Source: Halichondria panicea (Eukaryota > Porifera > Demospongiae > Suberitida > Halichondriidae). From it: a stretch of DNA of 64,000 nt. Shown piece after piece: positions 1 to 46,452 of the stretch; positions within the stretch are counted from its first letter, which is position 1; every line of letters begins with the position of its first letter. A program made the position numbers and the translations under genes. The notes under the pieces are model-generated. The model was not told the DNA's origin. It was given only the letters and a program-made list of their open reading frames with translations, and did no database searches. The DNA is taken from positions 1,063,001 to 1,127,000 of the forward strand of contig NC_087379.1 of the NCBI RefSeq assembly GCF_963675165.1, read 5' to 3'.

Positions 1-577
1 AGATGAGCTTGTCGACTTGAGCAGCACACACCTTGTTTAGATTCTTGTCGTCATATCCCCCCATTAGGTACACTGTGTTGTTGTAGACAATTCCTCTTTG
101 GTCACGACAAGCATACGGTAGTCTGCCTGTTTCGCTCCACTGGGAGGTGCTGATGTTGTAGATCTCAACATTATCAGTGCAGTCACGAGAGCCCAACACA
201 CCTCCTGCTACGACTAGATGTGTTGGGAGACTAACGACTGCTGGCCACATCCTCGCTGTGGGCATGGGTGGGATCGTCTGTTTCCATGTCTTTCTTTTGT
301 TAAACACATGTACCACGTTGGATGTAGAGAAGGGTAAATCCAGACCACCAACTGCTACCAGTTCACCTTTGACCTCCCCTAGACCAAAATATCGTACAGG
401 AAGTCTGGGCAGAGTTGACCAGACGTCTTGTGGCGGATCGTAACAGTAGACACAGTGCTTGTCATCATCGTCATAACAGAATCCTGCACCATAGTAGACC
501 TTGCCATTGATGGTTACCGCTAGTCCCTCAGACATCTTCACTGGAGCCTCAGAGCACTGACTGTAGGACAACTGAAC
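1..577 (-). CDS. Kelch-repeat exon of kinase-Kelch gene A (3' end beyond window)
   Basis: Open minus-strand frame through the window edge, so the C-terminal blades are missing. It encodes Kelch blades marked by Gly-Gly doublets and by aromatic strands such as CYDPPQDVWSTLP and VEIYNISTSQWSET. The exon begins after a pyrimidine-rich acceptor (CCCTACAG, then GTTCAG) in phase 0. That phase matches the donor closing the kinase exon at 4042, so I read the two as one gene with an intron of about 3.5 kb filled by transposons. A separate start at the MxHKLLTLC-like stretch just upstream is possible but would use intron sequence. The Kelch family forms beta-propellers that bind protein partners. The loops after each GG differ from those of the paralogues. 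Confidence 0.75.
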
Positions 578-928
578 CTGTAGGGACTGGAGAATACAGA
601 GAGTCAATAACTTGTGTGTTGCATGATTGTGTAGCTTGTAATTAAGAGCATTTGGAATGTATTACCATAGCAACAAAAAATATTATCAGTAATCGATCCT
701 GTGGGACACAAATTATTCTAATTTGAGGGTTATTTATATAATAGTGATTATCATACTGCAACATAATATATTCACAGATTATACGGTAGCCGATTGATTC
801 TTATTGCCGAGGCATCGCAAACAGAATTTTCAGAATACCTTGGTGGAACGTTAATATACACAACAACTTCCATTCTAAACCTAGGCACTGCATAATGTAC
901 TTGGCGATCAATTGGAACATTAAACAGT

Positions 929-1601
929 TACCGTAAAAAGACCTCGATTTACAGCGACCCTCTAAAATATGCGACACCCAATTATTATTTTTTTAATGTC
1001 GTATTCTGTGTAAAGGTAAATGTAGCCACTCCCTAGCAGTGGCGGATCTAGGATTCTTGAAAGGGGGGTTCCAGGGCTCTGAGCGGGTCAAGGACTGTTA
1101 TTTTACCTAGTTCATCACTTCTTTGAAACAGTGAGCATGCGCATTAACACACGGAATTTTTTCCTAAAAAAAGGTCATGACTTTTCATAAGCAATCTGCA
1201 TGCACTACGCTGGAGAGTTTTTAGCTTTCATAGTCACTGAAACTGCACAGACAAAGCTTCGCAGGACTAACAAGGACTAAAGGTAAGTGAGAAGTGCATG
1301 TGAAAGCTAGTAAGAAAGGAACAACTTGCTAACTAGTTGCTTGAGCCTCCCACTCATTTCTTTCCCAAAGGGGGGTTCAATTGAACCCAAAGAACCCCCT
1401 CTGGATCCACCACTGCCTAGCATCGATTGTAGCCCACTGGAAAATCAGTGTTTTTAAGCGGCCTGAAATCAAGGCAAGTAGACTCTGTAAAGTTACCTCC
1501 AATTCCCTCTAAATATGCGACACCAGGACTTCAATATAAATGTTCAACCTCTGGCTTCGTAATTATTAAAAAGTGTCGCTTTAAATCGAGGTCTTACGGT
1601 A
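929..1601. mobile_element. Inverted-repeat element with a second element nested in it
   Basis: The ends TACCGTAAAAAGACCTCGAT and its complement (TCGAGGTCTTACGGTA) face each other, and both have a neighbouring ATGCGACACC motif. No coding frame is seen inside. It lies in the large intron of gene A. The interior is split by a second element at 1037-1415, so the outer copy is the older one. Confidence 0.7.
1037..1415. mobile_element. Nested MITE with CAGTGGCGGATC-type ends
   Basis: It begins CAGTGGCGGATCTAGGA and ends with the near-complement TCTGGATCCACCACTG. The 5-bp flank CCTAG is repeated on both sides (1032-1036 and 1416-1420). Short purine-rich ends (AAGGGGGGTTC, complement GAACCCCCT) extend the inverted repeat. 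It is non-coding. CAGTGGCGGAT-type ends are common in hAT-like MITEs of animals, but the short flank repeat leaves the superfamily open. Confidence 0.7.
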
Positions 1602-1760
1602 CTTACTTCTATTAGAGTGGTGATACAATAAGAGATATGACAGTCATGTTTAGGTGCAGTGGCGTACGAAGCAATTTCTCAATGGGGGGGGGGGGGGGGG
1701 GCTGTAGTTTTTTTAGTGTAAGGCTATTTACATAGTATAGCTTGGATAAGTCATCTCTAC

Positions 1761-2486: not shown

Positions 2487-2565
<79 letters not shown>

Positions 2566-2742
2566 ACGTGTGTGTGTGCGTGTATGTGTGTAAGTGGATT
2601 TGTGTGTGTGTGTGTGTGTGTGTGTGCGTGCGTACGTGTGCGTACATATGTGTGTGTGTGTGTGTGTTTGCGTACGTATGTGTGTGTCTGTTTGCGTGCG
2701 TGTGTGTGTGTGTGTGTGTGTTTGAGTGTGTGTGTGTGTGTT

Positions 2743-2786
<44 letters not shown>

Positions 2787-3961: not shown

Positions 3962-4041
3962 CTACTTAGAAATATGGGGGGGGGGGGGGCTCGATCCAGC
4001 CACTGCACTTAGCTATAGTGGTACAGTGTTGATGAGCTCAC

Positions 4042-5567
4042 CTGTGGTTTGCTGGTCAGGTAGTCCCTGGTTTTGGTGAGTTGGTTGTTTAATCTCTGAA
4101 TGGTGGTTTCCTTCTTCTGAAGGGAAGTGTCCTTGGAGGCAAGCATCGAATCTTTGTCAGCAATAGTTAAATCTTTGACAGAAATAGTGGAATCTTTGTC
4201 TGCTAAACGAGCTTGCTCTTGTTCCACTTGTGCAGTGAGATTGGTGACATCTGTTTCCAGTTGAGCTATTTTCGTAGCTTTAGATACAAGCTCGTTGTGA
4301 GTGTTGGCAATTTGTTGCTCCACCTCTTCAGTGAGTTGCTTACATCGAGTTTCTAACCTAGCAATGGTAGTATCTTTAGAATTCACCAGTGCATCTTTTG
4401 TGGCAGCCAATGATTCTTTGAGCTCCAATTCAACTCTGAGATTCTCTATCTCCACAACTAGTTGATCAGTTTCCACAGAGTGCACCAACTGCATACGCTC
4501 GACAGTGTTTTCACTTACTTCCTCTTGTCGTCTTTTCTCCTCCGCCAGTGCCTCGTTCTCTCCTGCTTTCTCCTGGATTGCCGAGTCCTTCCTCACAACC
4601 TCCTCCTCAAGCTCCCTCTTCTCTGTCAGTAGGGCACTCACTCGCTGGAGCATCTCCACTCTGTTCTCAAAGGAGGGAGGGTGTTCAAGTACCACACCCA
4701 CCATCCGACCCACTATCTCCGCTGCTCTAGGCCTTCGCTGAGGGTTGTTGCTGAGACAGCGCATGATGAGGTCCATCAGAGGGTGGTCTGGGGAAATCTT
4801 TCGAAGAAACTCTTCACGTCGTTCAGCTTCCGTCACTGGTATCAGTCTGTCAGGATTAGCAGGATCGATTCGTGTCTGGCCGATACTTGGTAGTGGCCAC
4901 TCTGCTGTGAAGGTGTGAATCATCATGATTCCAAAGGAGAACACATCCACACTGGTGTCATAGTGGGGGTTGGCAACCATCACTTCGGGGGGCATGTACG
5001 CTGGGGTGCCAGGGGTCTCCGTCATTCGACTTACTTGAAGGGGGGTCAGGTTCAATATTCGAGCAACCCCCAGATCGGATATTTTGGCCGTCATGTTGGT
5101 GGACAAGAGGACATTGTTGGCTGAGAGGTCTCTGTGCACAATGATTGGTGTTTGGCCATGGAGGTAGACCAGGCCCAGTGAGACGTCATGGAGGATGGAG
5201 AAGTTAATCTCATCGGGGAGAATACCGTAGCGCTCGAGACAGCTAGTCAAGTTGGTGGGGAGGAACTCCATGACTAGGATGGGGAACTGAGAGCCTTCCT
5301 CAAAACAGACTCCCAGAAACTGGACAATGTTGGGGTGCCTAGTTTGACTGAGCAGGTGACACTCCTCCAGATACCTTCGTGCTGCATGCCCGATTCCAGT
5401 CTCGTAGAGAACTCGGTAAAGCTTCTTGCCGGCACATTTCAGTCCTCGATACTCTAGCTCCATGACAACAGCGTTGGAACCTCGTCCAAACTCATTCTCA
5501 GTGATGTGAATTTGTCTTAGAGTGAACTGCTCAAAAGCTTGTGGATTTACAGCCATTGTCTTCGTTA
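4042..5567 (-). CDS. TKL-type protein kinase plus coiled coil, gene A
   Basis: The start at 5556 (MAVNPQAFEQFTLRQ) is 11 bp after a 3' splice site (TTTATTCCCACAG, then TAACGAAGACAATG), so a non-coding first exon lies upstream. The kinase domain spans about residues 15-290: glycine loop GRGSNAVV, lysine in CAGKKLY, catalytic loop VHRDLSANN, metal-binding SDLG (Leu in place of the usual Phe of DFG) and GTPAYMPPE. All residues expected for activity are present. About residues 300-500 are charged coiled coil ending in 7-residue units of the type KDSTISV, KDLTIAD. The exon closes at LTSKPQ with donor CAG, then GTGAGC, in phase 0, joining the Kelch exon at 577. Frames read on the opposite strand are shadows. 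Gene A carries GRGSN where its paralogues have GxGSY. Confidence 0.85.
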
Positions 5568-5697
5568 CTGTGGGAATAAATCATAAAAATAGGAAATCCA
5601 GCTAGAGGTATATAAAGTCAGCTTTGAATTATTGCATGCATGGAATGTTACTAGCTGCCTTACAGGACCATATGTAGTCACAGTCTTATATTCTTAC

Positions 5698-7075: not shown

Positions 7076-9039
7076 TTGAAAGGCGTTTTTCTAAATATCA
7101 GAAAATGAATGTGCATGATTTGACCAACGCAACTAAAGTTTTGACCCTTTAAAATATAATTATACATACATGTACATCCTCATCTTTAAATCCCTACACA
7201 GTAATACCTCCACAACTTTTGATGCTAACTGTATTGTGCTTCATTTCATGCAGGAATCATAAAATCCTCCAAGGCAAGCCACATCATGTGACACGATTCT
7301 TAGCTTTGGCTCGAGTGGGAAATCCAGACAAGAAGAAAAGAGTGAGTTGAAATCATTCTAGTCCCATTAGTATATGTTATTAATGATGACATCATCTTCA
7401 TACCTGCAGTACCTGTATGCATTCTCTGTCACACCCATGAGCTCCATGGACGAGAAAGAGCTGACTCAGCAACCACCCACTGCAACCAACTGTCCCTACA
7501 CAAATCTTTGGTAAGGAAAATTTCGTATTATCTCATAATGTCTAGCTATCGTTGAAGGAGCAATAGTTATACTTGTAGATTGTCCAATTTTCCAAACAAA
7601 AACTTGCGTTATGTAGCACTCTGAGAGTCCTATCTCTAGATATCACCATTTGTGTTATAGTTCAATCCACCATGTTTGCTGAGGTCAAAGTTTATTGTGT
7701 ACCTACTCCCACACACTGTGCAGAGGGAGTCTCAAGAGGAGGCTGGGCCTAACTTCTTCTTTGATCAGAGGCTCTTGATTCAGCTCATCGCAAACAGAAG
7801 AGACAACAGGACGGAGGACCCCCTGCAAAGAGACGACCCCCTCCCCGGCCCAGGGGGCCGTGCTGGTTCTGTCTGGGGGGCAAGGAGGTGGAGAAACATC
7901 TCGTGGTCTCCATCGGAGATCATGTGAGATAGAGTGTGTTGTACTTGCTAATACTGCACATACAAAATACAATGTAGCTCACAAATAGCAGACCACTAAC
8001 AGTTTGTATTGTACCCTATATAGACGTACCTGGCTTTATCCAAGGGTGGGATGGTACCAGAGCATGTGCTGGTCCTACCCATCGGTCACTATGCAGCCTC
8101 CACTGACGCACCACCAGTGAGTTCATGTGCTGTGTGTACCACTGCTGTGTGTGTATAGTCATTGTTTGTATTGTGGAGAGTATGTTTCCATGCTCTGTGT
8201 GTACTATTTAGCAGTCTGTAGTGGTCAGCCTGTAAACAGGCCACCCTCTATAATACAGCCAGGTTCATGGGCCCCAAAGTCTCCATAGCATGTGTTTGGA
8301 CCTGTGTTAGCAGACCACCTCTTTAGTACAGCCACTGTTGGTCTGCCCACTGTGTAAGCAGAGATCACTATACCATATATCATGCATGTACACTGTGTGA
8401 CCTGTGCTCTATTACTGTAGGAGGTTTTGGAGGAGCTTGGAAAGTTCAAGAGTGCTCTGAGGAAGTACTTCAACAGCAAAGATCAGTCGTGTGTCATTTT
8501 CGAGAGAAACTACAAATGACAGCGTCTTCAACTACAGGTCAGTACCGTCAAGGCCGTATTATCATGTGATGTGATTGATACTGTATGGTTGGTGTGTTGA
8601 GATTAGGCTACAAGGTTTTGAGGGCAAACAGAGGAATGTGATTTCTCTTTTCAATGGTTCAGAGACTCTTTCAGCTGCCATAACTTGAATTCTGTGTATT
8701 CAATTTCAACGGTTTTATGATTTTACAAGAGGCCATCTAGCAAAGATCGTGATTTTATAGGTCTTATTTGTGAAACCATTAGCATTCGCAAACTTACATA
8801 ATTATGTGGAAACATTGTATAAATACGGTACATGTTAGTGTGTGTATGGTAGATGTGTTGACTGATAGTTGTGTATGGTTAGTGTGTGATGGTAATGGTG
8901 GTCACTGTAGGTTATTCCAGTGACCAAGATTCCATCTGATGCTCTGAGACAAGCCTTCATAGATTATGGGTGGAGTATGGGGGTGTGGCTTGAGACTGTG
9001 CCCAGGGAAACACCACCCTCAGAGGTAACACACTCACAT

Positions 9040-11357: not shown

Positions 11358-11842
11358 ATCACTGACACTTGCAAAAAAACAAACATTAGTAGTGTACTCT
11401 ATTTATTCTTGTATGAAAGAGCAATGTTGTTTTGTCGTAGCGATTATCTTTAGAATCCGATAGTCTAATTTAATGTATAATAATAATATTAAACATTCAA
11501 TAATAATTATTTGTGTGTAAATTAATGTCTCAAGTTGTGATTGTATAATAATGCGTACTGTGTGCAAGATTCATAAGCAGTTCGACTGGTACATGCATGC
11601 ACACTATTTATATACAGCTAGCTATAATTATACGTGTTTTTCAACGTACACATGTATATACTCAACTCTTATTAAATTAATCCTATAATTATTATTAATG
11701 GATGATAATAATTAATTATAAGAAACTTTTTTAAAACATTAATTTGCTATTAAAAAAAAATTGTAAAAATAAAACTACTAAGTGATTGTGAAGGAGAGAT
11801 TGAGTGAGGTCGGTCCGAATTAAGTGATTCAGCAAAAGTGTT

Positions 11843-12591
11843 CTATTTGAATGTGAGAGCTCCTACTAGGGCAACTCCTAAGCTGATTGCAGCCACTGTA
11901 CATGTGAGCCAGCGAGTAGGGTGGCGGTTCTCAGCTCTCTGGTTTTCAGTTCTCTCTTTGGCTTTCTCAGAGGCATCAATACTCACTGCTCCCTTGATGG
12001 CACCCTGGATGTGGAGAAATAAAAGTCAACAAAAAATATAAAACATGCAGTGAAATACAGTAGTCAAATACTTAATCTACACATGCATACAACAATCTCT
12101 TACCCAACCGCCATGCTCGAGAATCCACTGAGTGAAGTCGTGAAGAAATGTCGTCTGCCATCCAACGATACTGTCTATCAAGGGAGTCTTGTTCTCTTCA
12201 TACAATCGTTTCGCTAGTACGCTCGTGAAGAACAGCAGCACTGCAATCTTGCCCCACTTGATGTCGTCTACCATGAGCCTGGAACAAGAGTTTTGATATT
12301 CAGCATAGAGTTGTTGGTGAGATATGTCCAGCGTCTTCACTCTGCCCTCAATTTCTTGTTGATGCTTCAGTTTCAGGTCTTTACAGCAAGTTTCCAGCAT
12401 TGAAATCGCATCTTTAAAGCCTTTATTCTTCGCAAGGAGATCCCTCATAAGCTTGTCGTGGCTGTAGATGCATTTCAGTTGTATTCTGTCTTCTTTATGC
12501 TGAAAGCTTTCAGCATAAAATCCACGAGGTGATGGCTGATGGCACTGCTTTGGGTTTTGATTTGGTGAAGGTCATCTCTTGAATGGGCCAT
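11843..12591 (-). CDS. Bcl-2 family apoptosis regulator with C-terminal membrane anchor
   Basis: Exon 1 is 12591-12104 and exon 2 is 12004-11843. Exon 1 starts MAHSRDDLHQ and has a BH4-like HLVDFMLKAF, a BH1-like segment (DIKWGKIAVLLFF) and a BH2-like segment (WILEHGGW) ending exactly at a GTAAGA donor. Exon 2 (acceptor CATCCAG) encodes a charged linker and a hydrophobic anchor (VAAISLGVALVGALTF), as in anchored Bcl-2 proteins of outer mitochondrial or ER membranes. The family controls mitochondrial apoptosis by binding other Bcl-2 members; sponges are known to have such proteins. Oddity: the BH4 part and the rest are in different frames. The switch falls at a perfect 26-bp palindrome (12494-12519), so an indel, an assembly error or an unseen small intron must be considered. 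A safe downstream start is 12446 (MRDLLAKNKG). Confidence 0.8.
12494..12519. repeat. Perfect 26-bp palindrome in the Bcl-2 reading frame
   Basis: TTTATGCTGAAAGCTTTCAGCATAAA has the core CTGAAAGCTTTCAG and reads the same on both strands. It sits at the point where the Bcl-2 frame shifts by one. Confidence 0.85.
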
Positions 12592-17417: not shown

Positions 17418-18003
17418 TCAAGAAATAGTTGTTGCACTTTTAATTTTGATACTAATTTTATGCACGGTAGATTGTGTTTCTCTTTCTTTGTTCCATCCCC
17501 CAATCATAAGGCACTCTGTTGGAGACAGTGACACAGAGGCAGCGTCTGCTATAGGAGATGGTAGATCACCAACGTAGAGCCAGGAGTCCATCGAGGACGA
17601 GTAGGAGTAGATCCTTTGAGTGACTTCACCTTCACTATCCTCTCCACCAACAGCAAAGAGGGTGTCGAATATCGTTACAGGGGAGGAACAGTAAGACGGT
17701 GTGTTGGATATTGTATTCCAGACAGAGTCGGCTTTGTTGGCACTCCCATCATCCTGTCGGTCTGCTGAGATGAGCTTGTCGACTTGAGCACCACACACCT
17801 TGTTTAGAAAATTGCCGTCACTTCCCCCCATTAGGTACACTGTGTTGTTGTAGACAATTCCTCTTTGGTCATAACAAGCATACGGTAGTCTGTCTGTCTC
17901 GCTCCACTGGGAGGTGCTGATGTTGTAGATCTCAACGTTATCAGTGAAGTCGCCATCGTCCAACACACCTCCTGCTACAATCAGATGTGTTGAGAGACTA
18001 ACC
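17418..18003 (-). pseudogene. Kelch-exon fragment B, lacking its N-terminal blades and kinase
   Basis: Minus-strand frame homologous to the C-terminal two thirds of the other Kelch exons, from LSTHLIVAGGVLDDGDFTDN to the end. At 18003 the homology stops abruptly and runs into the sequence that normally lies upstream of a kinase gene (AACGAGAAGGTCA, AAGCAAAAGGGGGCGTGG). A single deletion thus removed the first blades, the intron and the whole kinase exon. The frame remains open, and a chance start is available at 18026, but there is no kinase. Confidence 0.8.
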
Positions 18004-22229: not shown

Positions 22230-23138
22230 TTAAGAAATAGTTGTTGCAGTTCTAATTTTATACACAGTAGATTGTTTTCCATTGTTAAATCCCCCAATCA
22301 CTAGGCACTCTGTTGGAGACAGTGACACAGTGGCAGTGTGTGCTATAGGAGATGGTAGATCACTAACGTAGAGCCAGGAGTCCATCGAGGATGAGTAGGC
22401 GTAGATCCTTTGAGTGGCTTCACGTTCACTATCCACTCCACCAACAGCAAAGAGGGTGTCGGATATCGTTACAGGGGAGGGAAAGTAAGACGGTGTGTTG
22501 GATATTGTATTCCAGATAGAGTCGGCTTTGTTGGCACTCCCATCATCCTGTCGGTCTGCTGAGATGAGCTTGTCGACTTGAGCAGCACACACCTTGTTTA
22601 GATGATTGTTGTCAAATCCCCCCATTAGGTACACTGTGTTGTTGTAGACAATTCCTCTTTGGTTGTGACAAGCATACGGTAGTCTGTCTGTCTCGCTCCA
22701 CTGGGAGGTGCTGATGTTGTAGATCTCAACATTATCAGTGTAGGGACCATAGTCCAACACACCTCCTGCTACGACCAGATGTGTTGGGAGACTAACGACT
22801 GCTGGTGAATCCCTCGCTGTGGGCATGGGTGGGATCGTCAGTTTCCAGTTCCTTCCTTTGTTAAACACATGTACCACGTTGGATCTAGAGCGAGATGAAT
22901 CCATACCGCCAACTGCTACCAGTTCACCTTTGACCTGCCCTAGACCAAAATAGTATACAGGAAGTCTGGGCAGAGTTGACCAGACGTCTTGTGGCGGATC
23001 GTAACAGCGGACACAGCACTCGTCATCATCGTAATCACAGATTCCTCCACCATAGTAGACCTTGCCATTGATGGTTACCGCTCGCCCAACATTCATCTTC
23101 ATTGGAGCCTCAGAGCACTGACTGTAGGACAACTGAAC
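22230..23138 (-). CDS. Kelch exon of kinase-Kelch gene C
   Basis: The exon starts with GTTCAG after CCCTACAG (phase 0) and encodes about 300 residues with six GG-marked Kelch blades: YYGGG, VAVGG, VVAGG, YLMGG, FAVGG and VIGG. It ends KIRTATTIS. The predicted protein joins LTSKPQ of the kinase exon (24210) to VQLSYSQC. The intron is about 1.07 kb and holds a MITE. Variable stretches follow the GG pairs: ICDYDDDECC, MDSSRSRS, VLDYGPYT and FDNNH. An in-frame start at 23183 upstream of the acceptor would make a separate secreted-like protein; I consider it less likely because it lies in the intron. Six-bladed Kelch propellers usually bind proteins. Confidence 0.85.
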   Translation of the reverse strand, partial: VQLSYSQCSEAPMKMNVGRAVTINGKVYYGGGICDYDDDECCVRCYDPPQDVWSTLPRLPVYYFGLGQVKGELVAVGGMDSSRSRSNVVHVFNKGRNWKLTIPPMPTARDSPAVVSLPTHLVVAGGVLDYGPYTDNVEIYNISTSQWSETDRLPYACHNQRGIVYNNTVYLMGGFDNNHLNKVCAAQVDKLISADRQDDGSANKADSIWNTISNTPSYFPSPVTISDTLFAVGGVDSEREATQRIYAYSSSMDSWLYVSDLPSPIAHTATVSLSPTECLVIGGFNNGKQSTVYKIRTATTIS

Positions 23139-24209: not shown

Positions 24210-25745
24210 CTGTGGTTTGCTGGTCAGGTAGTCTCTAGTTTTGGTGAGCTGATCGTTTAAACTCTGAATGGTGGCCTCTTTCTTTTGAAGGGAAGTGTCC
24301 TTGGAGACAAGCATTGAATCTTTGTGAGCAATTGTTGAATCTTTGACAGCAATAGTCAAATCTTTGTGGGTGATAATAGAGTTTTTTTCTGCTTGCTCTT
24401 GTTCCACTTGTGCAATGAGATTGGTGACATCTGTTTCCAGTTGAGCTATTTTTGTAGCTTTAGATACAAGCTCGTTGTGAGTGTAGTTGACGTTGGCAAT
24501 TTGTTGCTCCACCTCTTCAGTGAGTTGCTTACATTGAGTTTCTACCTCAGTAATTCTAGCATCTTTCATGTTAACAATTGTCTCATTATCTTCGAGTTGA
24601 CCTTTAAGATTTTCGTTTTCCAATTTCAACTGATCAGTTTCCACGGAGTGCACCAACTGCATACGATCGACAGTGTTTTCACTTTCTTCATCTTGTCGTC
24701 TTTTCTCCTCCGCCAGTGCCTCGTTCTCTCCTGCTTTCTCCTGGATTGCCGAGTCCTTCCTCACAACCTCCTCCTCAAGCTCCCTCTTCTCTGTCAGTAG
24801 GGCACTCACTCGCTGGAGCATCTCCACTCTGTTCTCAAAGGAGGGAGGGTGTTCAAGTACCACACCCACCATCCAACCCATTATCTCCACTGCTCTAGGC
24901 CTTCGCTGAGGGTTGTTGCTGAGACAGCGCATGATGAGGTCCATCAGAGGGTGGTCTGGGGTAATCTTTCGAAGAAAATGTTCACGTCGTTCAGCTTCCG
25001 TCACTGGTATCAGTCTGTCAGGATTAGCAGGATCGATTCTGTTGGGGCCGATCTTTGGTAGTGGCCACTCTGCTGTGAAGGTGTGAATCATCATGACCCC
25101 AAAGGAGAACACATCCACACTGGTGTCGTAGTGGGGGTCGGCAACCATCACTTCGGGGGGCATGTACGCTGGGGTGCCAGGGGTCTCAGTCATTCGACTC
25201 GCTTGAAGGGGGGTGAGGTTCAATATTCGAGCAACCCCCAGATCAGATATCTTGGCCGTCATGTTGGTGGACAAGAGGACATTGTTGGCTGAGAGGTCTC
25301 TGTGCACAATGATTGGTGTTTGGCCATGGAGGTAGACCAGGCCCAGTGAGACGTCATGGAGGATGGAGAAGTTGATCTCATCGGGGAGAATACCGTAGCG
25401 CTCGAGACAGCTGGTCAAGTTGGTGGGGAGGAACTCCATGACTAGGATGGGGAACTGAGAGCCTTCCTCAAAACAGACTCCCAGAAACTGGACAATGTTG
25501 GGGTGTCTAGTTTGACTGAGCAGGTGACACTCCTCCAGATACCTTCGTGCTGCATGCCCGATTCCAGTATCGTAGAGAACTCGGTAAAGCTTCTTGCCGG
25601 CACATTTCAGTCCTCGATACTCTAGCTCCATGACAACAGCGTAGGAACCTCGTCCAAGCTTATTCTCAGTGATGCGAACTTGTCTCAGAGTGAACTGCTC
25701 GAAAGCTTGTGGATTTACAGCCATTGTCTTCGTTACTGTGTGAAT
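24210..25745 (-). CDS. TKL-type protein kinase plus coiled coil, gene C
   Basis: The start chosen is 25734 (MAVNPQAFEQ), 11 bp after the TTCTATTCACACAG acceptor; the frame is open upstream to 25793 but that stretch is intron. Kinase motifs: GRGSYAVV, CAGKKLY, VHRDLSANN, SDLG and GTPAYMPPE. The coiled coil follows from about residue 300 and ends in heptad units (KDLTIAV, KDSTIAH, KDSMLVS, KDTSLQK), one unit more than gene E. The donor CCACAG, then GTGAGC, joins the Kelch exon at 23138. The 5' UTR exon donor is near 25914. Relative to gene A the middle of the coiled coil differs (LENENLKGQLEDNETI), consistent with exchange or local divergence. Confidence 0.85.
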
Positions 25746-28422: not shown

Positions 28423-30154
28423 TTGTATAATAATGCCGTACACAGAATTTCGTTCAAAATAAAACATGTTACAGATTCAAGAGTATTATCATTCAGAAAC
28501 GTCCAAAAACTTCTTTCATTCTGATTACAACTTTCTCCTTGTCAATAATTATTGGTTATTTAGAACACCTATCCAACTCAGGAAGCTCTGAAGTTGAGGG
28601 GGCCGCTGGCCCCCTCTGTTCCTACTCCACTGCATTGTCCAATTTTCCAAGCAAAAACTTCCGTTATGTAGCACTCTGAGAGTCCTATCTCTAGATATCA
28701 CCATTATTTTGTGTTGTAGTTCAAATCTACCATGTTTGCAGAGGTCAAAGTTTATTGTGTACATACTCCCACACACTGTGCAGAGGGAGTCTCAAGAGGA
28801 GGCTGGGCCTAACTTCTTCTTTGACCAGAGGGCTCTTGATTCCGCTCATCGCAAACAGAAGAGACAACAGGACGGAGGACCCCCTGCAAAGAGACGACCC
28901 CCTCCCCAGCCCAGGGGGCCGTGCTGGTTCTGTCTGGGGGGCAAGGAGGTGGAGAAACATCTCGTGGTCTCCATCGGAGATCATGTGAGATAGAGTGTGT
29001 TGTACTTGCTAATACTGCACATACAAAATACAATGTAGCTCACAAATAGCAGACCACTAACAGTTTGTATTGTATACCCTATATAGACGTACCTGGCTTT
29101 ATCCAAGGGTGGGATGGTACCAGAGCATGTGCTGGTCCTACCCATCGGTCACTATGCAGCCTCCACTGACGCACCACCAGTGAGTTCATGTGCTGTGTGT
29201 ACCACTGCTGTGTGTGTATAGTCATTGTTTGTATTGTGGAGAGTATGTTTCCATGCTCTGTGTGTACTATTTAGCAGTCTGTAGTGGTCAGCCTGTAAGC
29301 AGGCCACCCTCTATAATACAGCCAGATTCATGGGCCCCAAAGTCTCCATAGCATGTGTTTAGACCTGTGTTAGCAGACCATCTCTTTAGTACAGCCACTG
29401 TTGGTCTGCCCACTGTGTAAGCAGAGATCACTATACCATATATCATGCATGTACACTGTATGACCTGTGCTCTATTACTGTAGGAGGTTTTGGAGGAGCT
29501 TGGAAAGTTTAAGAGTGCTCTGAGGAAGTACTTCAACAGCAAAGATCAGTCGTGTGTCATCTTCGAGAGAAACTACAAATCACAGCATCTTCAACTACAG
29601 GTCAGTACCGTCAAGGCCGTATTATCATGTGATGTGATTGATACTGTATGGTTGGTGTATTGAGATTAGGCTACAAGGTTTTGAGGGCAAACAGTGATTT
29701 CTCTTTTTAATCATTCAATGGTTCAGGGACTCTTTCAGCTGCCATAACTTAAATTCTGTGTATTCAATTTCATTATTTTAGAAAGAGGCCATCTAGCAAA
29801 GATCGTGATGTCATACAATATAGGTTTTTGCAATCTTATTTGTGAAGCCATTAGCATTCGCAAACTTACATAATTATGTGGAAACATTGTATAAATACGG
29901 TACATGTTAGTGTGTGTATGGTAGATGTGTTGACTGATATTTGTGTATGGTTAGTGTGTGATGGTAATGGTGGTCACTGTAGGTTATTCCAGTGACCAAG
30001 ATTCCATCTGATGCTCTGAGACAAGCCTTCATAGATTAAGGGTGGAGTATGGGGGTGTGGCTTGAGACTGTGCCCAGGGAAACACCACCCTCAGAGGTAA
30101 CACACACACATCATAGCTGTACCATGTTCTACGTACCATTCTCTAAGCCTTTTA

Positions 30155-32128: not shown

Positions 32129-33037
32129 TTAAGAAATAGTTATTGCAGTTCTAATTTTATATACAGTTGATTGTCTTCTTTTGTTCCATCCCCCAATCAT
32201 AAGGCACTGTGTTGGAAACAGTGACACAGTGGCAGCTCCTGCTATAGGAGATGGTAGATCACCAACGTAGAGCCAGGAGTCCATCGAGGATGAGTAGGCG
32301 TAGATCCTTTGAGTGGCTTCACGTTCACTAACCACTCCACCAACAGCAAAGAGGGTGTCGGATATCGTTACAGGGGAGGGACAGTAGGACGGTGTATTGG
32401 ATATTGTATTCCAGATAGAGTCGGCTTTGTTGGCACTCCCATCATTCTGTCGGTCTGTTGAGATGAGCTTGTCGACTTGAGCAGCACACACCTTGTTTAG
32501 ATTCTTGCCGTCACTTCCCCCCATTAGGTACACTGTGTTGTTGTAGACAATTCCTCTTTGGTCACGACAAGCATACGGTAGTCTGTCTGTCTCGCTCCAC
32601 TGGGAGGTGCTGATGTTGTAGATCTCAACAATATCAGTGAAGTCACCATAGTCCATATCACCTCCTGCTACGACCAGATGTGTTGGGAGACTAACGACTG
32701 CTGGTGAATCCCTCGCTGTGGGCATCGGTGGGATCGTCCGTTTCCAGTTCCGTCCTTCGTTAAACACATGTACCACATTGGATGCAGTGTCGGGTGAATC
32801 TATACCGCCAACTGCTAACAGTTCACCTTTGACCTCTCCTAGACCAAAATAGCGTACAGGAAGTCTGGGCAGAGTTGACCAGACGTCTTGTGGCGGATCG
32901 TAACAGTGGACACAGTACATGTCATCAATACCACCACAGCCTCCTCCACCATAGTAGACCTTGCCATTGATGGTTACCGCTTGCCCCAAAGACATCTTCA
33001 CTGGAGCCTCAGAGCACTGACTGTAGGACAACTGAAC
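32129..33037 (-). CDS. Kelch exon of kinase-Kelch gene D
   Basis: Same structure as the Kelch exon of gene C: phase-0 acceptor CCCTACAG, six blades, C-terminus KIRTAITIS. The intron to the kinase exon is only about 290 bp, the shortest in the array, which makes the joint kinase-Kelch reading most convincing here. Variable loops: GCGGIDDMYC, IDSPDTAS, DMDYGDFT and SDGKN. The frame is open upstream to 33160, but that includes intron. The conserved strands (CYDPPQDVWSTLPRLPV, VEIYNISTSQWSETDRLP) are unchanged from the other copies. Confidence 0.85.
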   Translation of the reverse strand, partial: VQLSYSQCSEAPVKMSLGQAVTINGKVYYGGGGCGGIDDMYCVHCYDPPQDVWSTLPRLPVRYFGLGEVKGELLAVGGIDSPDTASNVVHVFNEGRNWKRTIPPMPTARDSPAVVSLPTHLVVAGGDMDYGDFTDIVEIYNISTSQWSETDRLPYACRDQRGIVYNNTVYLMGGSDGKNLNKVCAAQVDKLISTDRQNDGSANKADSIWNTISNTPSYCPSPVTISDTLFAVGGVVSEREATQRIYAYSSSMDSWLYVGDLPSPIAGAATVSLFPTQCLMIGGWNKRRQSTVYKIRTAITIS

Positions 33038-33328: not shown

Positions 33329-34887
33329 CTGTGGTTTGCTGGTCAGGTAGTCTCTGGCTTTGGTGAGTTGGTTGTTTAAACTCTGAATGGTATCTTCTTT
33401 CTTCTGAAGGGAAGTGTCCTTGGAGGCAAGCATTGAATCTTTGTGAGCGATGGTCAAGCTATTGTGGGTGATAATAGAGCTTTTGTCTGCTAGCTCCTGT
33501 TCCACTTGTGCAGTGAGATTGGTGACATCTGTTTCCAGTTGAGCTATTTTCGTAGCTTTAGATACAAGCTCGTTGTGAGTGTAGTTGACATTGGCAATTT
33601 GTTGCTCCACCTCTTCAGTGAGTTGCTTACATCGAGTTTCTAACCTAGCAATGGTAGTATCTTTAGAATTCACCAGTGCATCTTTTGTGGCAGCCAATGA
33701 TTCTTTGAGCTCCAATTCAACTCTGAGATCCTCTATCTCCACACTATGTTCAGTTACTACTTTGTCATTTTTGATTTTGAGCTGATTAATTTCCACAGAG
33801 TGCACCAACTTCATACGCTCGACAGTGTTTTCACCTTCTTCCTCTTGTCGTCTTTTCTCCTCCGCCAGTGCCTCGTTCTCTCCTGATTTCTCCTGGATTG
33901 CCGAGTCCTTCCTCACAACCTCCTCCTCAAGCTCCCTCTTCTCTGTCACTAGGGCACTCACTCGCTGGAGCATCTCCACTCTGTTCTCAAAGGAGGGAGG
34001 GTGTTCAAGTACCACACCCACCATCCGACCCACTATCTCCGCTGCTCTAGGCCTTCGCTGAGGGTTGTTGCTGAGACAGCGCATGATGAGGTCCATCAGA
34101 GGGTGGTTTGGGGAAATCTTTCGAAGAAAATGTTCACGTCGTTCAGCTTCCGTTACTGGTATCAGTCTGTCAGGATTAGCAGGATCGATTCGTGTCTGGC
34201 CAATCTTTGGTAGTGGCCACTCTGATGTGAAGGTGTGAATCATCATGATCCCAAAGGAGAACACATCCACACTGGTGTCGTAGTGGGGGTCGGCAATCAT
34301 CACTTCGGGGGGCATGTACGCTGGGGTGCCAGGGGTCTCTGTCATTCGACTTACTTGAAGAGGGGTCAGGTTCAATATTCGAGCAACCCCTAGATCGGAT
34401 ATCTTGGCCGTCATGTTGGTGGACAAGAGGACATTGTTGGCTGAGAGGTCTCTGTGCACAATGACTGGTGTTTGGCCATGGAGGTAGACCAGGCCCAGTG
34501 AGATGTCATGGAGGATGGAGAAGTTGATCTCATCGGGGAGAATACCGTAGCGCTCGAGACAGTTGGTCAAGTTGGTGGGGAGGAACTCCATGACTAGGAT
34601 GGGGAACTGAGAGCCTTCCTCAAAACAGACTCCCAGAAACTGGACAATGTTGGGGTGCCTAGTTTGACTGAGCAGGTGACACTCCTCCAGATACCTTCGT
34701 GCTGCATGCCCGATTCCAGTCTCGTAGAGAACTCGGTAAAGCTTCTTGCCGGCACATTTCAGTCCTCGATACTCTAGCTCCATGACAACAGCGTAGGAAC
34801 CATGTCCAAACTCAGTCTCAGTGATGCGAACTTGTCTCAGAGTGAACTGCTCGAAAGCTTGTGGATTTACAGCCATTGTCTTCGTTA
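33329..34887 (-). CDS. TKL-type protein kinase plus coiled coil, gene D
   Basis: The start is at 34876, after a TTCTATTCCCACAG acceptor. Kinase motifs are intact: GHGSYAVV (His for the Arg of genes A and C), CAGKKLY, VHRDLSANN, SDLG and GTPAYMPPE. The coiled coil is longest near residues 350-380 (MKLVHSVEINQLKIKNDK) and repeats LVHSVE-type units. It closes with LTSKPQ and donor GTGAGC. The 5' UTR exon donor is near 35130, about 180 bp from the divergent CWF19L1 copy 4. Nothing in the frame suggests decay. Confidence 0.85.
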
Positions 34888-38300: not shown

Positions 38301-39250
38301 TTCCATCTGATGCTCTGAGACAAGCCTTCATAGATTATGGGTGGAGTATGGGGGTGTGGCTTGAGACTGTGCCCAGGGAAACACCACCCTCAGAGGTAAC
38401 ACACACACATCATAGCTGTACCATGTTTTCTACGTACCATTCTCTAAGCCTTTTATAACCTCGATTCCAGGCCGATTAAAATACGGCCTGGTACCTATTG
38501 CATGGTGATAGTGCGCATGCGTTAGTTTATTCTCCAGAATCCTTTCTCTCATCTATTTTCTATCTATGTACATCAGCTTAGTATTGCGTTGTTTCAGAAG
38601 GCTTTCACACTAGTCTAAAGTCAGAAGAGGCTCTCATCTACCTCTATGACGGTTGTATGGTCAGGATGTCTTACATTGGATCTGTACAGACTATGGGAAG
38701 TGTATGGTGCCTCTTGACTTCTACTTGCGAAGACAACCCGGCTATAGGACCATCCTAGATATAGTAAATGAGAGCCTCTTCTGTCTTAAAATTAGTGTTC
38801 AAGCCTTCTAGACCAACGCAATAGATGACATAAGCCACAGCTTCACAGAACTCAGTCATGGAGATAAAGTATTACGGAACATTATTCTTAGTAAACGGTA
38901 TAATTTACGTTCGTAGTACGATTACCCATATTCTGAGTAATTTGAAGGGCATGCACACTATCACCCATGCAATACCAGGCCATATTTTAATGCGGCCTGT
39001 AATCGATGCTAATAAGCATATAGAATAGTGGCTATAAGCCTTTTAGTTATCAATACTTCTCTTTACCAGAATCTATTAGTTTTGCTACACACACACCGTC
39101 CCTGAGGGCCTCCCACCCACCCACACACACACACACACCCTCTCTGAGGGCCTCCCACCCACCCACCCACACACACACACAGATTGCGTACACTGGTGTC
39201 CCACACATGCGTACACTGGTGTCCCATACTTCCTGGCAGAGTTTGATGAT
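35312..39250 (+). pseudogene. CWF19L1: CWF19L1-like gene, copy 4 (broken)
   Basis: Exons: 35312-35319, 35384-35468, 35535-35613, 35670-35777, 35841-35947, 36009-36137, 36204-36322, 36597-36684, 36756-36866, 37002-37268, 37371-37463, 37767-37883, 38282-38395 and a last remnant at about 39180-39250. Stops: TAA at 35723 in exon 4 (GQF, then stop where the others read FYGD) and TAA at 36843 in exon 9. The exon 7 donor is GC instead of GT (AG, then GCACAG). Exon 10 is in frame from its GTTGTAG acceptor thanks to one extra CA unit. The 3' end is replaced by a repeat at about 39250. Confidence 0.8.
38455..39011. mobile_element. Second copy of the foldback element of 30155
   Basis: Nearly identical in sequence and in position (after CWF19L1 exon 13) to 30155-30713, so it was duplicated with the module rather than inserted twice. 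The left end reads TAACCTCGATTCCAGGCCG here. Confidence 0.7.
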
Positions 39251-40397: not shown

Positions 40398-40411
40398 ATT
40401 TTGTGTTGTAG

Positions 40412-42113
40412 TTCAAATCCATATGTTTGCAGAGGTCAAAGTTTATTGTGTACCTACCCCACACACTGTGCAGAGGGAGTCTCAAGAGGAGGCTGGGCCT
40501 AACTTCTTCTTTGACCAGAGGGCTCTTGATTCTGCTCATCGCAAACAGAAGAGACAACAGGACGGAGGACCCCCTGAAAAGAGACGACCCCCTCCCCAGC
40601 CCAGGGGGCCGTGCTGGTTCTGTCTGGGGGGGCAAGGAGGTGGAGAAACATCTCGTGGTCTCCATCGGAGATCATGTGAGATAGAATGTGTTGTACTTGC
40701 TAATACTGCACATACAAAATACAATGTAGCTCACAAATAGCAGACCACTAACAGTTTGTATTGTATACCCTATATAGACGTACCTGGCTTTATCCAAGGG
40801 TGGGATGGTACCAGAGCATGTGCTGGTCCTACCCATCGGTCACTATGCAGCCTCCACTGACGCACCACCAGTGAGTTCATGTGCTGTGTGTACCACTGCT
40901 GTGTGTGTATAGTCATTGTTTGTATTGTGGAGAGTATGTTTCCATGCTCTGTGTGTACTATTTAGCAGTCTGTAGTGGTCAGCCTGTAAGCAGGCCACCC
41001 TCTATAATACAGCCAGGTTAATGGGCCCCAAAGTCTCCATAGCATGTGTTTGGACCTGTGTTAGCAGACCACCTCTTTAGTACAGCCACTGTTGGTCTGC
41101 CCACTGTGTAAGCAGAGATCACTATACCATATATCATGCATGTACACTGTATGACCTGTGTTCTATTACTGTAGGAGGTTTTGGAGGAGCTTGGGAAGTT
41201 TAAGAGTGCTCTGAGGAAGTACTTCAACAGCAAAGATTAGTCGTGTGTCATCTTCGAGAGAAACTACAAATCACAGCATCTTCAACTACAGGTCAGTACC
41301 GTCAAGGCCGTATTATCATGTGATGTGATTGATACTGTATGGTTGGTGTGTTGAGATTAGGCTACAAGGTTTTGAGGGCAAACAGAGGAATGTGATTTCT
41401 CTTTTTATGGTTCAGGGACTCTTTCAGCTGCCGTAACTTGAATTCTATTTCAACGGTTTTATGATTTTACAAAGAGGCCATCTAGCAAAGATCGTGATGT
41501 CATACAATAATTTTATAGGTCTTTGAAATCGTATTTGTGAAGCCATTAGCATTCGCAAACTTACATTATTATTATGTGGAAATATTGTATAAATACGGTA
41601 CATGTTAGTGTGTGTATGGTAGATGTGTTGACTGATAGTTGTGTATGGTTAGTGTGTGATGGTAATGGTGGTCACTGTAGGTTATTCCAGTGACCAAGAT
41701 TCCATCTGATGCTCTGAGACAAGCCTTCATAGATTATGGGTGGAGTATGGGGGTGTGGCTTGAGACTGTGCCCAGGGAAACACCACCCTCAGAGGTAACA
41801 CACACACATCATAGCTGTACCATGTTCTACGTACCATTCTCTAAGCCTTTTAGTGATCGAAACTTCTCTTTACCATAATGTATTGCTACACACACACTCC
41901 TCCCATCACCCACACACACACACACACACACGCAGCTTGATGACATGTTGAATGCTTTTATTGGTTGCAATATCAGCTGCAGGGAGGTGTTGGCTGCTTC
42001 TCTCGTTCTGAATCTGCCCAATCGGATCAACTGGAAGTTGTGTCTGGCAACAAAGGACGAGGAGACGAAAGCTGCTCTAGAAATGACATTTGATTTCACG
42101 CTGACACTGATTC
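40412..42113 (+). pseudogene. CWF19L1: CWF19L1-like gene, copy 5 (5'-truncated fragment)
   Basis: Begins at exon 10 (40412-40675), followed by exons 40778-40870, 41175-41291, 41681-41794 and a final exon from 41983. Lesions: 1-nt loss before ATG-like TTTGCAGAGG, an extra G in GGGGGGG at about 40627, TAG at 41238, deletion of exons 14-15, and a deletion inside the last exon (EM, then TFDFT). Clearly non-functional. Confidence 0.85.
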
Positions 42114-42527: not shown

Positions 42528-43437
42528 TCAAGAAATAGTTATTGCAGTTCTAATTTTATACACAGTTGATTGTCTTCCATTGTTCCATCCTCCAATTGTA
42601 AGGCACTCTGTTGGAGACAGCGACACAGTGGCAGCGTGTGCTATAGGAGATGGTAGGTCACCAACGTAGAGCCAGGAGTCCATCGAGGATGAGTAGGCGT
42701 AGATCCTTTGAGTGACTTCACTATCCACTCCACTAACAGCAAAGAGGGTGTCGGATATCGTTACAGGGGAGGGCCGGTAAGACGGTGTATTGGATATTGT
42801 ATTCCAGACAGAGTCGGCTTTGTTGGCACTCCCATCATCCTGTCGGTCTGTTGAGATGAGCTTGTTGACTTGAGCAGCAAACACCTTGTTTAGATTGTTG
42901 CCGTCAAATCCTCCCATTAGGTACACTGTGTTGTTGCAGACAATTTCTCTTTGGCCACAACAAGCATACGGTAGTCTGTCTGTCTCGCTCCACTGGGAGG
43001 TGCTGATGTTGTAGATCTCAACATTATCAGTGTAGATACGAGGGCCCAACCCACCTCCTGCTACGATCAGATGTGTTGGGAGACTAACGACTGCTGGCCA
43101 CTTCCTCGCTGTGGGCATGGGTGGGATCGTCTGTTTCCAGTTCCTTCCTTTGTTAAACACATGTACCACGTTGGATCTAGAGTAGGAGGAATCTATACCG
43201 CCAACTGCTACCAGTTCACCTTTGATCTCTCCTAGACCAAAATAGCGTACAGGAAGTCTGGGCAGAGTTGACCAAACGTCTTGTGGCGGATCGTAACAGT
43301 GGACACAGTACTCGTCATCGTCATCACAGTGTCCTCTACCATAGTAGACCTTGCCATTGATGGTGACCGCTTGCCCACTAGACATCTTCACTGGAGTCTC
43401 AGAGCACTGACTGTAGGACAACTGAACCTGTAGGGAC
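42528..43437 (-). CDS. Kelch exon of kinase-Kelch gene E
   Basis: Open frame with six blades and the phase-0 CCCTACAG acceptor. Variable loops: HCDDDDEYC, IDSSYSRS, GLGPRIYT and FDGNN. The first blade has YYGRG in place of YYGGG, and a short deletion removes residues in the fifth blade (VSGVDSEVTQ for VGGVDSEREATQ), so this propeller has lost one GG. Several Cys changes (YACCGQREIVC) also set it apart. It joins the kinase exon at 44906 across an intron of about 1.5 kb holding a transposon. Confidence 0.85.
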
Positions 43438-43733
43438 TGGAGAATACAGAGAGTCAATAACTTGTGTTGCATGTGATTAGGGGCATATTTGGCTATCTAA
43501 TAACAGGGAATCAATGTAAGGTTCACTCAGACAAGAGGGCTACTAGTTCAAGGTTACTATAGCAACAAATAATATATTATAAGCATCCTGTGGGCTCGAC
43601 ACAAATATCGTATAGAGGGTTATTTTCATATGGTGGAAATGTTTGTACTTTTCATATTAGTAGAGCTCATATGAAAATTAATACTGTAAAATTTTTCTGG
43701 CACAATAATTATGTTCAACATCACTATCCTGAG

Positions 43734-44511
43734 TAGCCTTGATTCCAGGCCGCGAAGAGAAAGGCGGCCTGGTATACTTTGTATGCGCATGCGCGAAATA
43801 ATTGACAACAATTTCACCATACAAAATTTTATTGTACAAAACGGACAAAGTTACGACAATGTAACCACAATGGCAGCTTTTAATCAAAGTAGAATAATTA
43901 TGCTGCAGCAGTGTTACTTCTTCTAGCTCTGTTTATCAAAGAGACAGTTCAAGAAGGCCTCCCAGACAGCTAGAGCTTGCCAGCTAGGAAGAGTGGTTGA
44001 CTCTTTACTACATCAGTAGTAGATCTTGAGTGAATATTAAACTTCCTGAGTGTCGAGTTAAAGCTTATTAGAAGCTTTCAGGAGTAATCATTAGCTTCTT
44101 TATCTTCAGCAATGACTTCCTGTCGAACATAAAGGCAAGATTTAGTAGCAGAAGACTTGCCTGGTCCATATTACCACAGCCTCATCAGGGGACCCACAGG
44201 AACACATCATGCCTTTCATAACATCTGTAAGCCTTACAGTGTAGGGTGTCGTTAAGTAGAGACTGACTTGGCTTGATACAATAAAGGGCGTAAGAACTCA
44301 GTCATCTTTGCACAATACTTCTATGTAACGGACTGTAACTTCAGAATACAAATAGTATACGGTTTATTTTACTGACAGTATCCACAATTACACGGATTAC
44401 CCCCTTTTTTGAGGTAATGTACGCGCATGCGCATACAAGGTATACCAGGCTGCCATGCGCATACAAGGTATACCAGGCTGCCTTTCTCTTCGCGGCCTGG
44501 AATCGAGGCTA
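43734..44511. mobile_element. TIR element with 9-bp target duplication, TAGCCTxGATTCCAGGCCGC ends
   Basis: The ends TAGCCTTGATTCCAGGCCGC and GCGGCCTGGAATCGAGGCTA face each other. The flank TATCCTGAG is exactly repeated on both sides. CGCATGCGC motifs lie just inside both ends, and the right-end subterminal unit (GCGCATACAAGGTATACCAG) is tandemly duplicated. It lies in the intron of gene E and has no open frame. A 9-bp duplication is typical of Mutator-like elements. Confidence 0.75.
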
Positions 44512-44905
44512 TATCCTGAGCTGTACGAATAAGAAAATTTTAAATAGGCATATGAACCAATGAAAATTACCCACTATAAGGTATATATTTTTTGTTACTA
44601 TGGTAACCTTGAACCACAAAAATAGACCTACTATTGGCACTTATATTTGGAGTGGTGATTAGCATACAATACGATGGCTATGTACACTACGAGTAATTGT
44701 ACATGACCATTTATTACAAGCCACACTATACACAACAACTTGAATTTTAATTACCGAGGCATCGCAAAAAAGAAAATACTTCGTCCTGTATTGGAACAGT
44801 AAGCTTTGGACTTGGTACTTCTATTAGGGTGGTGATATAATAAGAGATATGAGGGTATCATATTTTAGATGTGTGCACTTAGTGGTACAGTGTTGATGAG
44901 CTCAC

Positions 44906-46452
44906 CTGTGGTTTGCTGGTCAGGTAGTCTCTGGTTTTGGTCAGTTGGTTGTTTAAACTCTGAATGGTAGTTTTATTTTTTTGAAGGTAAGTGTCCTTGG
45001 AGGCAAGCATCGAATCTTTGTCAGCAATAGTCAAATCTTTGTGGGTGATAATAGAGTTTTTTTCTGCTAAATGAGCTAGCTCTTGTTCCACTTGTGCAGT
45101 GAGATTGGTGACATCTGTTTCCAGTTGAGCTATTTTCGTAGCTTTAGATACAAGCTCGTTGTGAGTGTAGTTGACGTTGGCAATTTGTTGCTCCACCTCT
45201 TCAGTGAGTTGCTTACATCGAGTTTCTACCTCAGTAATCCTAGCATCTTTGGAGAGAATAAATGCATCTTTTGTGGCAGCCAATGATTCTTTGAGCTCCA
45301 ATTCAACTCTGAGATCCTCTACCTCTACACTATGTTCAGTTACTAGTTGATCAGTTTCCACAGAGTGCACCAACTGCATACGCTCGACAGTGTTTTCACT
45401 TTCTTCCTCTTGTCGTCTTTTATCCTCCGCCAGTGCCTCGTTCTCTCCTGCTTTCTCCTGGATTGCCGAGTCCTTCCTTACAACCTCTTCCTCAAGCTCC
45501 CTCTTCTCTGTCAGTAGGGCACTCACTCGCTGGAGCATCTCCACTCTGTTCTCAAAGGAGGGAGGGTGTTCAAGTACCACACCCACCATCCGACCCACTA
45601 TCTCCGCTGCTCTAGGCCTTTGCTGAGGGTTGTTGCTGAGACAGCGCATGATGAGGTCCATCAGAGGGTGGTCTGAGGGAATCTTTCGAAGAAACTCTTC
45701 ACGTCGTTCAGCTTCCGTCACTGGTATCAAACCATTGGGATTAGCAGGATCGATTCGTGTCTGGCCGATACTTGGTAGTGGCCACTCTGCTGTGAAGGTG
45801 TGAATCATCATGATCCCAAAGGAGAACACATCCACACTGGTGTCATAGTGGGGGTTGGCAACCATCACTTCGGGGGGCATGTACGCTGGGGTACCAGGGG
45901 TCTCCGTCATTCGACTCACTTGAAGGGGGGTCAAGTTCAATATTCGAGCAACCCCCAGATCGGATATCTTGGCCGTCATGTTGGTGGACAAGAGGACATT
46001 GTTGGCTGAGAGGTCTCTGTGCACAATGACTGGTGTTTGACCATGGAGGTAGACCAGGCCCAGTGAAACGTCATGGAGGATGGAGAAGTTGATCTCATCG
46101 GGGAGAATACCGTAGCGCTCGAGACAGCTGGTCAAGTTGGTGGGGAGAAACTCCATGACTAGGATGGGGAACTGAGAGCCTTCTTCAAAACAGACTCCCA
46201 GAAACTGAACAATGTTGGGGTGCCTAGTTTGACTGAGCAGGCGACACTCCTCCAGATACCTTCGTGCTGCATGCCCGATTCCAGCTTCATACAGAGCTCT
46301 GTGAAGCTTCTTGCCGGCACATTTCAGTCCTCGATACTCTAGCTCCATGACAACAGCGTAGGAACCATGTCCAAACTCATTCTTAGTGATGCGAATTTGT
46401 TTCAGAGTGAACTGCTCGAAAGCTTGTGGATTTACAGCCATTGTCTTCGTTA
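44906..46452 (-). CDS. TKL-type protein kinase plus coiled coil, gene E
   Basis: The start at 46441 follows a TTCTATTCCCACAG acceptor. Motifs: GHGSYAVV, CAGKKLH, VHRDLSANN, SDLG and GTPAYMPPE. The coiled coil is slightly shorter than in gene D. Its heptad tail reads KDLTIAD, KDSMLAS, then KDTYLQK. The donor CCACAG, then GTGAGC, at 44905 joins the Kelch exon at 43437. Upstream (46.5-46.75 kb) the UTR exon and conserved divergent-promoter block are present, but no CWF19L1 gene follows; this is the right-hand end of the array. Confidence 0.85.

Follow-up and report, generated by a model that had tools for sequence, protein, structure and literature searches.

Part of a large tandem gene family lies in the window analyzed here, a 64,000-nucleotide stretch of Halichondria panicea DNA (NC_087379.1, positions 1,063,001 to 1,127,000); its members join a protein kinase and a long coiled coil to a Kelch propeller. 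A sequence-only reading of the window had proposed a kinase that is conserved and a binding face that varies, and this proposal is supported by the register of the variable positions, by the ratio of nonsynonymous to synonymous differences (dN/dS) and by the same pattern in a sister family. From codon comparisons among the copies, positive selection is driving one face register of the propeller apart while the kinase and the propeller frame stay near-constant. Probably these are germline genes for a large set of intracellular recognition kinases with a diversified Kelch face, for which the most likely trigger would be microbial or foreign-cell material.

Evidence for positive selection on one face of the Kelch propeller

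We analyzed 303 codon sites in 31 Kelch exons with a custom-written, FUBAR-like codon method. The set comprises 29 of the exons L009-L038, together with L066 (whole) and L053 (partial); L010 was excluded for an internal stop and L054, a duplicate of L053, was left unused. Of the 51 near-full Kelch exons, 31 were available at whole length and 20 were not. Beta exceeds alpha with a posterior above 0.9 at 48 of the 303 sites, the reverse holds at 24, and the best global omega on a coarse grid is 1.4. Rather than being spread evenly over the propeller, the variation falls mainly on one face register. When each blade is anchored on its GG pair, mean beta is greater than 1 solely at positions -16, -15, -14 and -12, in the d-a loop, and at +1 to +7, in the b-c loop. 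The loop strings first quoted for the window are present in the translations as given, and the b-c loops of blades 1-3 named there are indeed variable, although that account was incomplete, since in each of the six blades the d-a loop is variable along with the b-c loop. A mask of 60 codons (-16 to -14 and +1 to +7), hereafter the face, contains 34 of the 48 called sites, and the whole-face strings are all distinct in the 30 complete Kelch exons compared. The blade 1 b-c loop (alignment columns 33-42) is acidic, variable in length and usually flanked by two cysteines.

The face also stands apart in rate. By the Nei-Gojobori (NG86) method, dN/dS is 1.96 in the face and 0.52 elsewhere (465 pairs), with values of 2.10 and 0.51 in the 25 closest pairs, so that loop dN/dS lies above 1, and it does so likewise in nine exons of the sister family. 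On a fixed tree and a coarse grid, maximum-likelihood omega reaches 5 in the face (twice the log-likelihood difference, 2 delta lnL, is 118 relative to omega 1); the remaining propeller has 0.7, the coiled coil 0.6 and the kinase 0.3.

Two checks on the mask are independent of the profile from which it was drawn. The sister family took no part in drawing it, and when the mask is carried over to nine sister exons (L069-L077), dN/dS is 2.20 in the face versus 0.64 elsewhere and variable codons number 27 of 52 versus 10 of 225 (p=2.7e-15). The second check is the register of Keap1, a six-blade Kelch protein. The residues reported in the available part of PMC12266349 to interact with Nrf2 peptides are Ser363, Arg380, Asn382, Arg415, Arg483, Ser508, Ser555 and Ser602; the inhibitor lists there add the pocket residues Tyr334, Val369, Gly371, Tyr525, Gln530, Tyr572 and Phe577, and several of these residues agree with the portion of PMC12455397 that was consulted. 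In the GG register, all peptide contacts that can be placed (seven of the eight) take positions -16, -15, +1, +3 or +6, Ser602 lying past the last GG anchor, and five of the seven other pocket residues fall at +1 or +6. At these same five positions (-16, -15, +1, +3, +6), 19 of 30 sponge sites are called, versus 29 of 273 elsewhere. Variable sites are placed by their register against Keap1, not by a solved structure.

Neutral simulations with fast loops on one tree gave 0 calls at 303 sites in each of three runs. Neutral simulations with recombination (a separate tree per blade, six trees) gave 15, 4 and 22 calls in three runs (11, 4 and 16 in the face), as against 48 (34) observed, and a face beta/alpha of 0.8-1.2, as against about 4 observed; on both counts, recombination alone is rejected as the source of the pattern. 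When the observed exons are analyzed with per-blade trees, 37 of the 60 face sites are called. Drift of pseudogenes is also disfavored: of the 30 Kelch exons L009-L038, 29 have no internal stop, and all 30 kinase exons examined keep the catalytic Lys, HRD and DxG motifs. The exceptions to this intact set are L010, with an in-frame TAA, and a Kelch fragment in the window, copy B.

Gene structure and size of the family

On the minus strand of the window lie four copies (A, C, D and E) of a gene with two exons, together with the Kelch fragment B (Table 1), for which no accompanying kinase exon was found. Copy A had been counted among the four main copies; it belongs to the family, but its Kelch exon is truncated by the window start, the whole exon being L032. 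Exon 1, of 505 to 516 codons in these four copies, codes for a protein kinase with a long coiled coil behind it and ends in a consensus donor, CAG|GTGAGC; exon 2 begins in the same phase at the acceptor ACAG|GTTCAG and supplies the Kelch propeller, which has six blades, six GG anchors and Kelch_1 matches up to 3.5e-28. The exon coordinates give predicted introns of 291 to 3,464 nt. The kinase exons of A, D and E are 89-90% identical to that of copy C, and the remaining Kelch pieces 81-86%. A search of both exons against Pfam returned only kinase and Kelch families above the cut-off, with no match to NACHT, NB-ARC or LRR; BTB also has no Pfam match in either exon, although an acceptor-like CACAG 11 bases upstream of the ATG in the four window copies leaves space for an unseen leader exon. 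Such an exon is possible given this site; a comparison of upstream regions found none among the 150 matches listed, the common stretch that was examined being a non-coding repeat of the tandem unit.

The kinase is predicted to be active from its intact catalytic motifs, in which DxG reads DLG in place of DFG. Its closest solved relatives by sequence are CTR1, WNK3 and TNNI3K, followed at lower similarity by RIPK2, IRAK1, TAK1 and plant receptor kinases. Given that the best PDB matches mix CTR1, TNNI3K, RIPK2, IRAK1 and TAK1 with WNK and STE20-type kinases, "TKL-type" would describe a likeness and not a formal placement.

The array is much larger than the window, which confirms and extends the tandem arrangement first noted. 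At least 51 near-full Kelch matches (≥74% identity) occur in the genome, 50 of them on contig C3 between 0.87 and 2.96 Mb and one on C16; kinase matches of at least 742 bits likewise number at least 51, with 50 on C3 and one on C16, and several contain stops. The Kelch exon of the sister family is 31-35% identical to that of copy C and has at least 126 matches (≥82% identity to L069) on C1 (mostly 15.5-17.4 Mb), C6, C28 and C12. Five of these carry an in-frame stop, and several share equal scores, which makes recent or assembly duplicates likely among them. The counts for both families are minimum values, as scoring was limited to the best candidates, and some of the matches contain stops. A kinase was sought in two sister copies, L069 and L078 (the latter read in addition to the nine exons compared), and was seen in both. 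A further cluster of nine kinase matches, at 37-41% identity, lies at C11:5.18-6.52 Mb. At C3:1004-1037 kb, matches to kinase, Kelch, Bcl-2 and a non-coding element repeat with equal scores at a spacing of 22,047 bases, which points to either a recent duplication of the block or a duplicate in the assembly.

Exchange between paralogues

Several tests indicate that stretches have probably been exchanged between paralogues. The pairwise homoplasy index (PHI) test gives p = 0.0005 (2,000 permutations), and in a GENECONV-like test 6 of 435 pairs pass the global 5% threshold while 37 have p<0.01 versus 4.4 expected, with the longest significant tracts spanning 225 and 368 nt. Over 582 nt, fragment B and the 3' part of L033, which lies about 163 kb distant, are 99.0% identical. 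Copy C and L035 differ at 0.2% of bases in the kinase domain, 25% in the Kelch face and 2.9% in the remaining Kelch exon; their whole first exons are 96.8% identical, while their introns align over 233 nt only, at 72%. This combination of similar first exons and poorly alignable introns suggests homogenization of exons rather than a recent duplication. Across the 21 genes for which both exons are available, kinase distance correlates with distance in the Kelch frame at r 0.61 and in the face at r 0.27.

A candidate family of recognition kinases

In the reading that we favor, the Kelch face of each copy would bind a different fast-changing protein or peptide, and ligand binding would gather or release the kinases linked by their coiled coils, leading to a common phosphorylation signal. 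One signal output with many input specificities would be the simplest mechanism. The trigger would most likely be microbial, from a pathogen or a symbiont, or foreign-cell material, to judge from the selection pattern, a sister copy with a Death domain (L078) and the Bcl-2 genes in the array. The role would be immune or one of self/non-self recognition, probably immune, and the Death domain and the Bcl-2 genes favor it; they also suggest that the outcome may include inflammation-like signaling or cell death. A wider form of this reading is more doubtful, though possible: the family would be an anticipatory repertoire of dozens to well above 100 kinase-Kelch genes, forming a main intracellular receptor class and a kinase counterpart of NOD-like receptors (NLRs), with faces diversified by selection and segment conversion, fragments such as copy B acting as donors, and wiring to Bcl-2-controlled death through the genes of the array.

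A number of observations weigh against a recognition family with a selected Kelch face. The face mask was drawn after the profile had been seen, and 14 of the 48 calls fall outside it (14 of 243 sites with one tree). Per-blade trees place 31 of these 243 sites above 0.9, mostly with low beta, and sites are called in the kinase (11 of 281) and the coiled coil (7 of 224) as well. The turns at -9 to -6 and +15 to +19, which from the strand order of Kelch blades we take to lie on the opposite face, have a mean alpha of 0.53 and beta of 0.48 over 54 sites, of which 6 are called. Recombination inflates per-site calls in the three simulated runs, and some single-site calls may be false. Synonymous differences are doubled at the face as well (pS 0.161 versus 0.080). 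Sharing of loop strings is no more correlated between adjacent loops (0.09) than between far ones (0.11) and incompatibility varies little with distance, so that movement of loops as blocks is without support. Val369 and Gly371 of the Keap1 pocket lie outside the face register, at -10 and -8, and are described as bottom side in the available text of PMC12266349. The AlphaFold model of the Kelch exon, built from five window rows, is poor (mean predicted local distance difference test, pLDDT, of 49.6) and too weak for placing sites in three dimensions. Both exons are predictions from sequence. In addition, neither a Pfam search of the exons nor a tblastn search of the window with the L078 N-terminus revealed a Death domain in the window family, and none of the genome matches listed lies in the window.

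Allorecognition, in which the family would tell self cells from those of other individuals on contact or fusion, each copy reading a polymorphic partner, is an unlikely alternative. To our knowledge, allorecognition loci usually need fewer paralogues than are seen here. A hypervariable, positively selected face in a tandem array would be in keeping with such a role, as would the self/non-self recognition by het-d and het-e of Podospora through hypervariable propeller sites (PMC12222747, in the portion available). The sponge proteins, however, look intracellular, as Pfam finds kinase and Kelch domains only above the cut-off (no signal-peptide or membrane prediction was run).

Discrimination or tolerance of symbionts, instead of defense, appears rather improbable. 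Sponges live with microbial consortia, and a silicatein-like gene marks the host as a siliceous sponge, both of which would suit this reading; no result obtained here, however, separates symbionts from pathogens as the source of the ligand. It is very improbable that the Kelch face merely docks various endogenous substrates for one kinase, in the manner of the peptides bound by Keap1 and KLHL3/12/20: the matches to Keap1-type propellers, by sequence and by a low-confidence fold, and the common contact register agree with such an adaptor, yet docking of endogenous substrates predicts conserved faces, whereas the face has an omega of about 5 and differs in every complete exon (30/30). Relaxed constraint or mutational hot spots in loops of no binding function, to which the raised synonymous differences at the face would correspond, is disfavored by the lack of internal stops in 29 of 30 Kelch exons and is scarcely credible given a face beta about fourfold alpha and one-tree neutral nulls with fast sites that gave no calls.

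Should a family of recognition kinases be confirmed, an early-branching animal would possess a large intracellular class of such kinases, with a specificity readable from about ten residues per blade. The hypervariable-propeller principle of fungal NLRs would then hold in animals too, where a kinase would provide the output, and sponge non-self recognition would become testable through binding assays on natural loop variants.

Comparison with known systems

The closest working analogue is the group of HNWD proteins of Podospora (het-d, het-e), in which four hypervariable codon positions per WD40 repeat are under diversifying selection and lie on a predicted interaction surface, according to the part of PMC12222747 at hand. 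Like the sponge family, they combine a conserved propeller frame, a few hypervariable face codons, homogenization by recombination and a fused signaling module (PMC12222747, same part); the sponge proteins share with them hypervariable selected sites on one propeller face, here a face set by register. The two differ in that HNWD proteins are fungal, carry WD40 rather than Kelch repeats and use NACHT and HET rather than a kinase, and in that their variation, as far as the available text goes, lies between repeats and alleles, whereas that of the sponge lies between paralogues. With Kelch for WD40 and no NACHT match in its exons, the sponge family is an analogue and not a member.

KLHL proteins are BTB-Kelch ubiquitin-ligase adaptors. 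The sponge family resembles Keap1 and the KLHL proteins in its six-blade Kelch propeller, in a variable register that holds 12 of the 14 placeable Keap1 pocket residues (from the partial text cited above) and in a Foldseek match to Keap1 with a template modeling (TM) score of about 0.5, obtained from the weak, low-confidence model; it differs in that the propeller's partner is a kinase and no BTB was found in the two exons. The family resembles the IRAK, Pelle and RIPK kinases in that RIPK2 and IRAK1 are among its solved relatives, beside CTR1, TAK1, WNK and STE20-type kinases, and in the Death domain of L078, although no such domain was found in the window copies; we know of no IRAK, Pelle or RIPK Death-domain kinase with a Kelch sensor.

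The large family of intracellular sensors described in sponges is that of the NLRs: Dysidea avara has 126 NACHT+LRR genes, 25 of them with an N-terminal Death domain, in the consulted part of PMC12909245. The present family is alike in size and likely location but consists of kinase and Kelch domains, with no NACHT or LRR match in its exons, and the term kelch has 0 occurrences in the main text of that paper. Two sponges exposed to microbial patterns yielded rows labeled "Kelch motif containing gene" with negative expression values (in the available part of PMC6208332), which may or may not relate to the present family. By titles and abstract openings of the papers listed, we found no kinase-Kelch family with a hypervariable face in the literature, most subscription journals and preprints lying outside this scope and a prior description being possible.

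Surroundings of the array

Genes of the Bcl-2 family are interspersed with the kinase genes. The genome has 17 Bcl-2 domain matches, 15 of which exceed the cut-off; 11 of the 17, including 10 above the cut-off, lie within the kinase-Kelch array at C3 0.86-1.63 Mb, in the orientation of the neighboring kinase genes. Among the 11, an in-frame stop occurs in four, and two pairs score equally. The Bcl-2 domain could instead belong to the kinase gene as an N-terminal exon; we disfavor this, as a separate tail exon can be read for the Bcl-2 gene. In the sister copy L078 (C28:36001-40100), a Death domain (E=6.5e-18) in an exon upstream of the kinase is followed by a Death-like stretch, the kinase and Kelch; the start of this copy is CARD-like by eye, with no Pfam match. 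A Death domain suspected by eye in L069 has no Pfam match alone, and its counterpart in L078, 59% identical, adjoins the true Death domain, so that it is regarded as Death-like only. Death and Bcl-2 domains are animal-type families, and searches for both found none in 14 control genomes.

Table 1. Features of the kinase-Kelch array and neighboring elements in the window.
Feature	Position	Strand	Evidence or remark
Copy A, Kelch exon, truncated by window start	1..577	-	complete exon read as L032
Copy A, kinase + coiled-coil exon, ATG to donor CAG|GTGAGC	4042..5556	-	Pfam Pkinase 2.2e-40; splice signals
Possible Bcl-2 tail exon, membrane-anchor-like stretch	about 11840-12000	-	read by eye
Main exon of a Bcl-2 family gene lying between copy A and fragment B	12077..12571	-	Pfam Bcl-2 3.1e-16
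Copy B, 3' Kelch fragment	17418..18002	-	Kelch_1 1.3e-14; 98.97% to L033 over 582 nt
Copy C, Kelch exon	22230..23138	-	Kelch_1 3.5e-28; acceptor
Copy C, kinase + coiled-coil exon	24210..25724	-	Pkinase 3.5e-41; splice signals
Conserved non-coding element of tandem unit	29700..30150	-	genome matches, no long common open frame
Copy D, Kelch exon	32129..33037	-	Kelch_1 3.4e-26; acceptor
Copy D, kinase + coiled-coil exon	33329..34876	-	Pkinase 5e-41; splice signals
Copy E, Kelch exon	42528..43427	-	Kelch_1 1.3e-22; acceptor
Copy E, kinase + coiled-coil exon	44906..46441	-	Pkinase 4.4e-41; splice signals
More copies of the non-coding element	8650-9078, 20701-21142, 37990-38451, 41407-41848

The tandem unit also includes a non-coding element of 451 bases, matched at 41 places in the genome at 74-99% identity excluding the query; C3 has 40 of these matches, nearly all within the array, and no long open frame is common to its copies. 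Scans of the window against Rfam (gathering threshold) and for tRNA genes were both empty. Matches of transposon type, to a DDE_Tnp_4-type transposase and, below the cut-off, to a reverse transcriptase, at 50422-51357 (-) and 60795-62738 (-), occupy the gap between copy E and the next copy of the array, at C3:1131471. Elsewhere in the genome, a multi-exon silicatein-like gene on C2 has exon matches of 58-79% identity, with Ser replacing the catalytic Cys (GDCGASYAFS). Silicatein marks siliceous sponges, and this gene points to such a sponge, most likely a demosponge.

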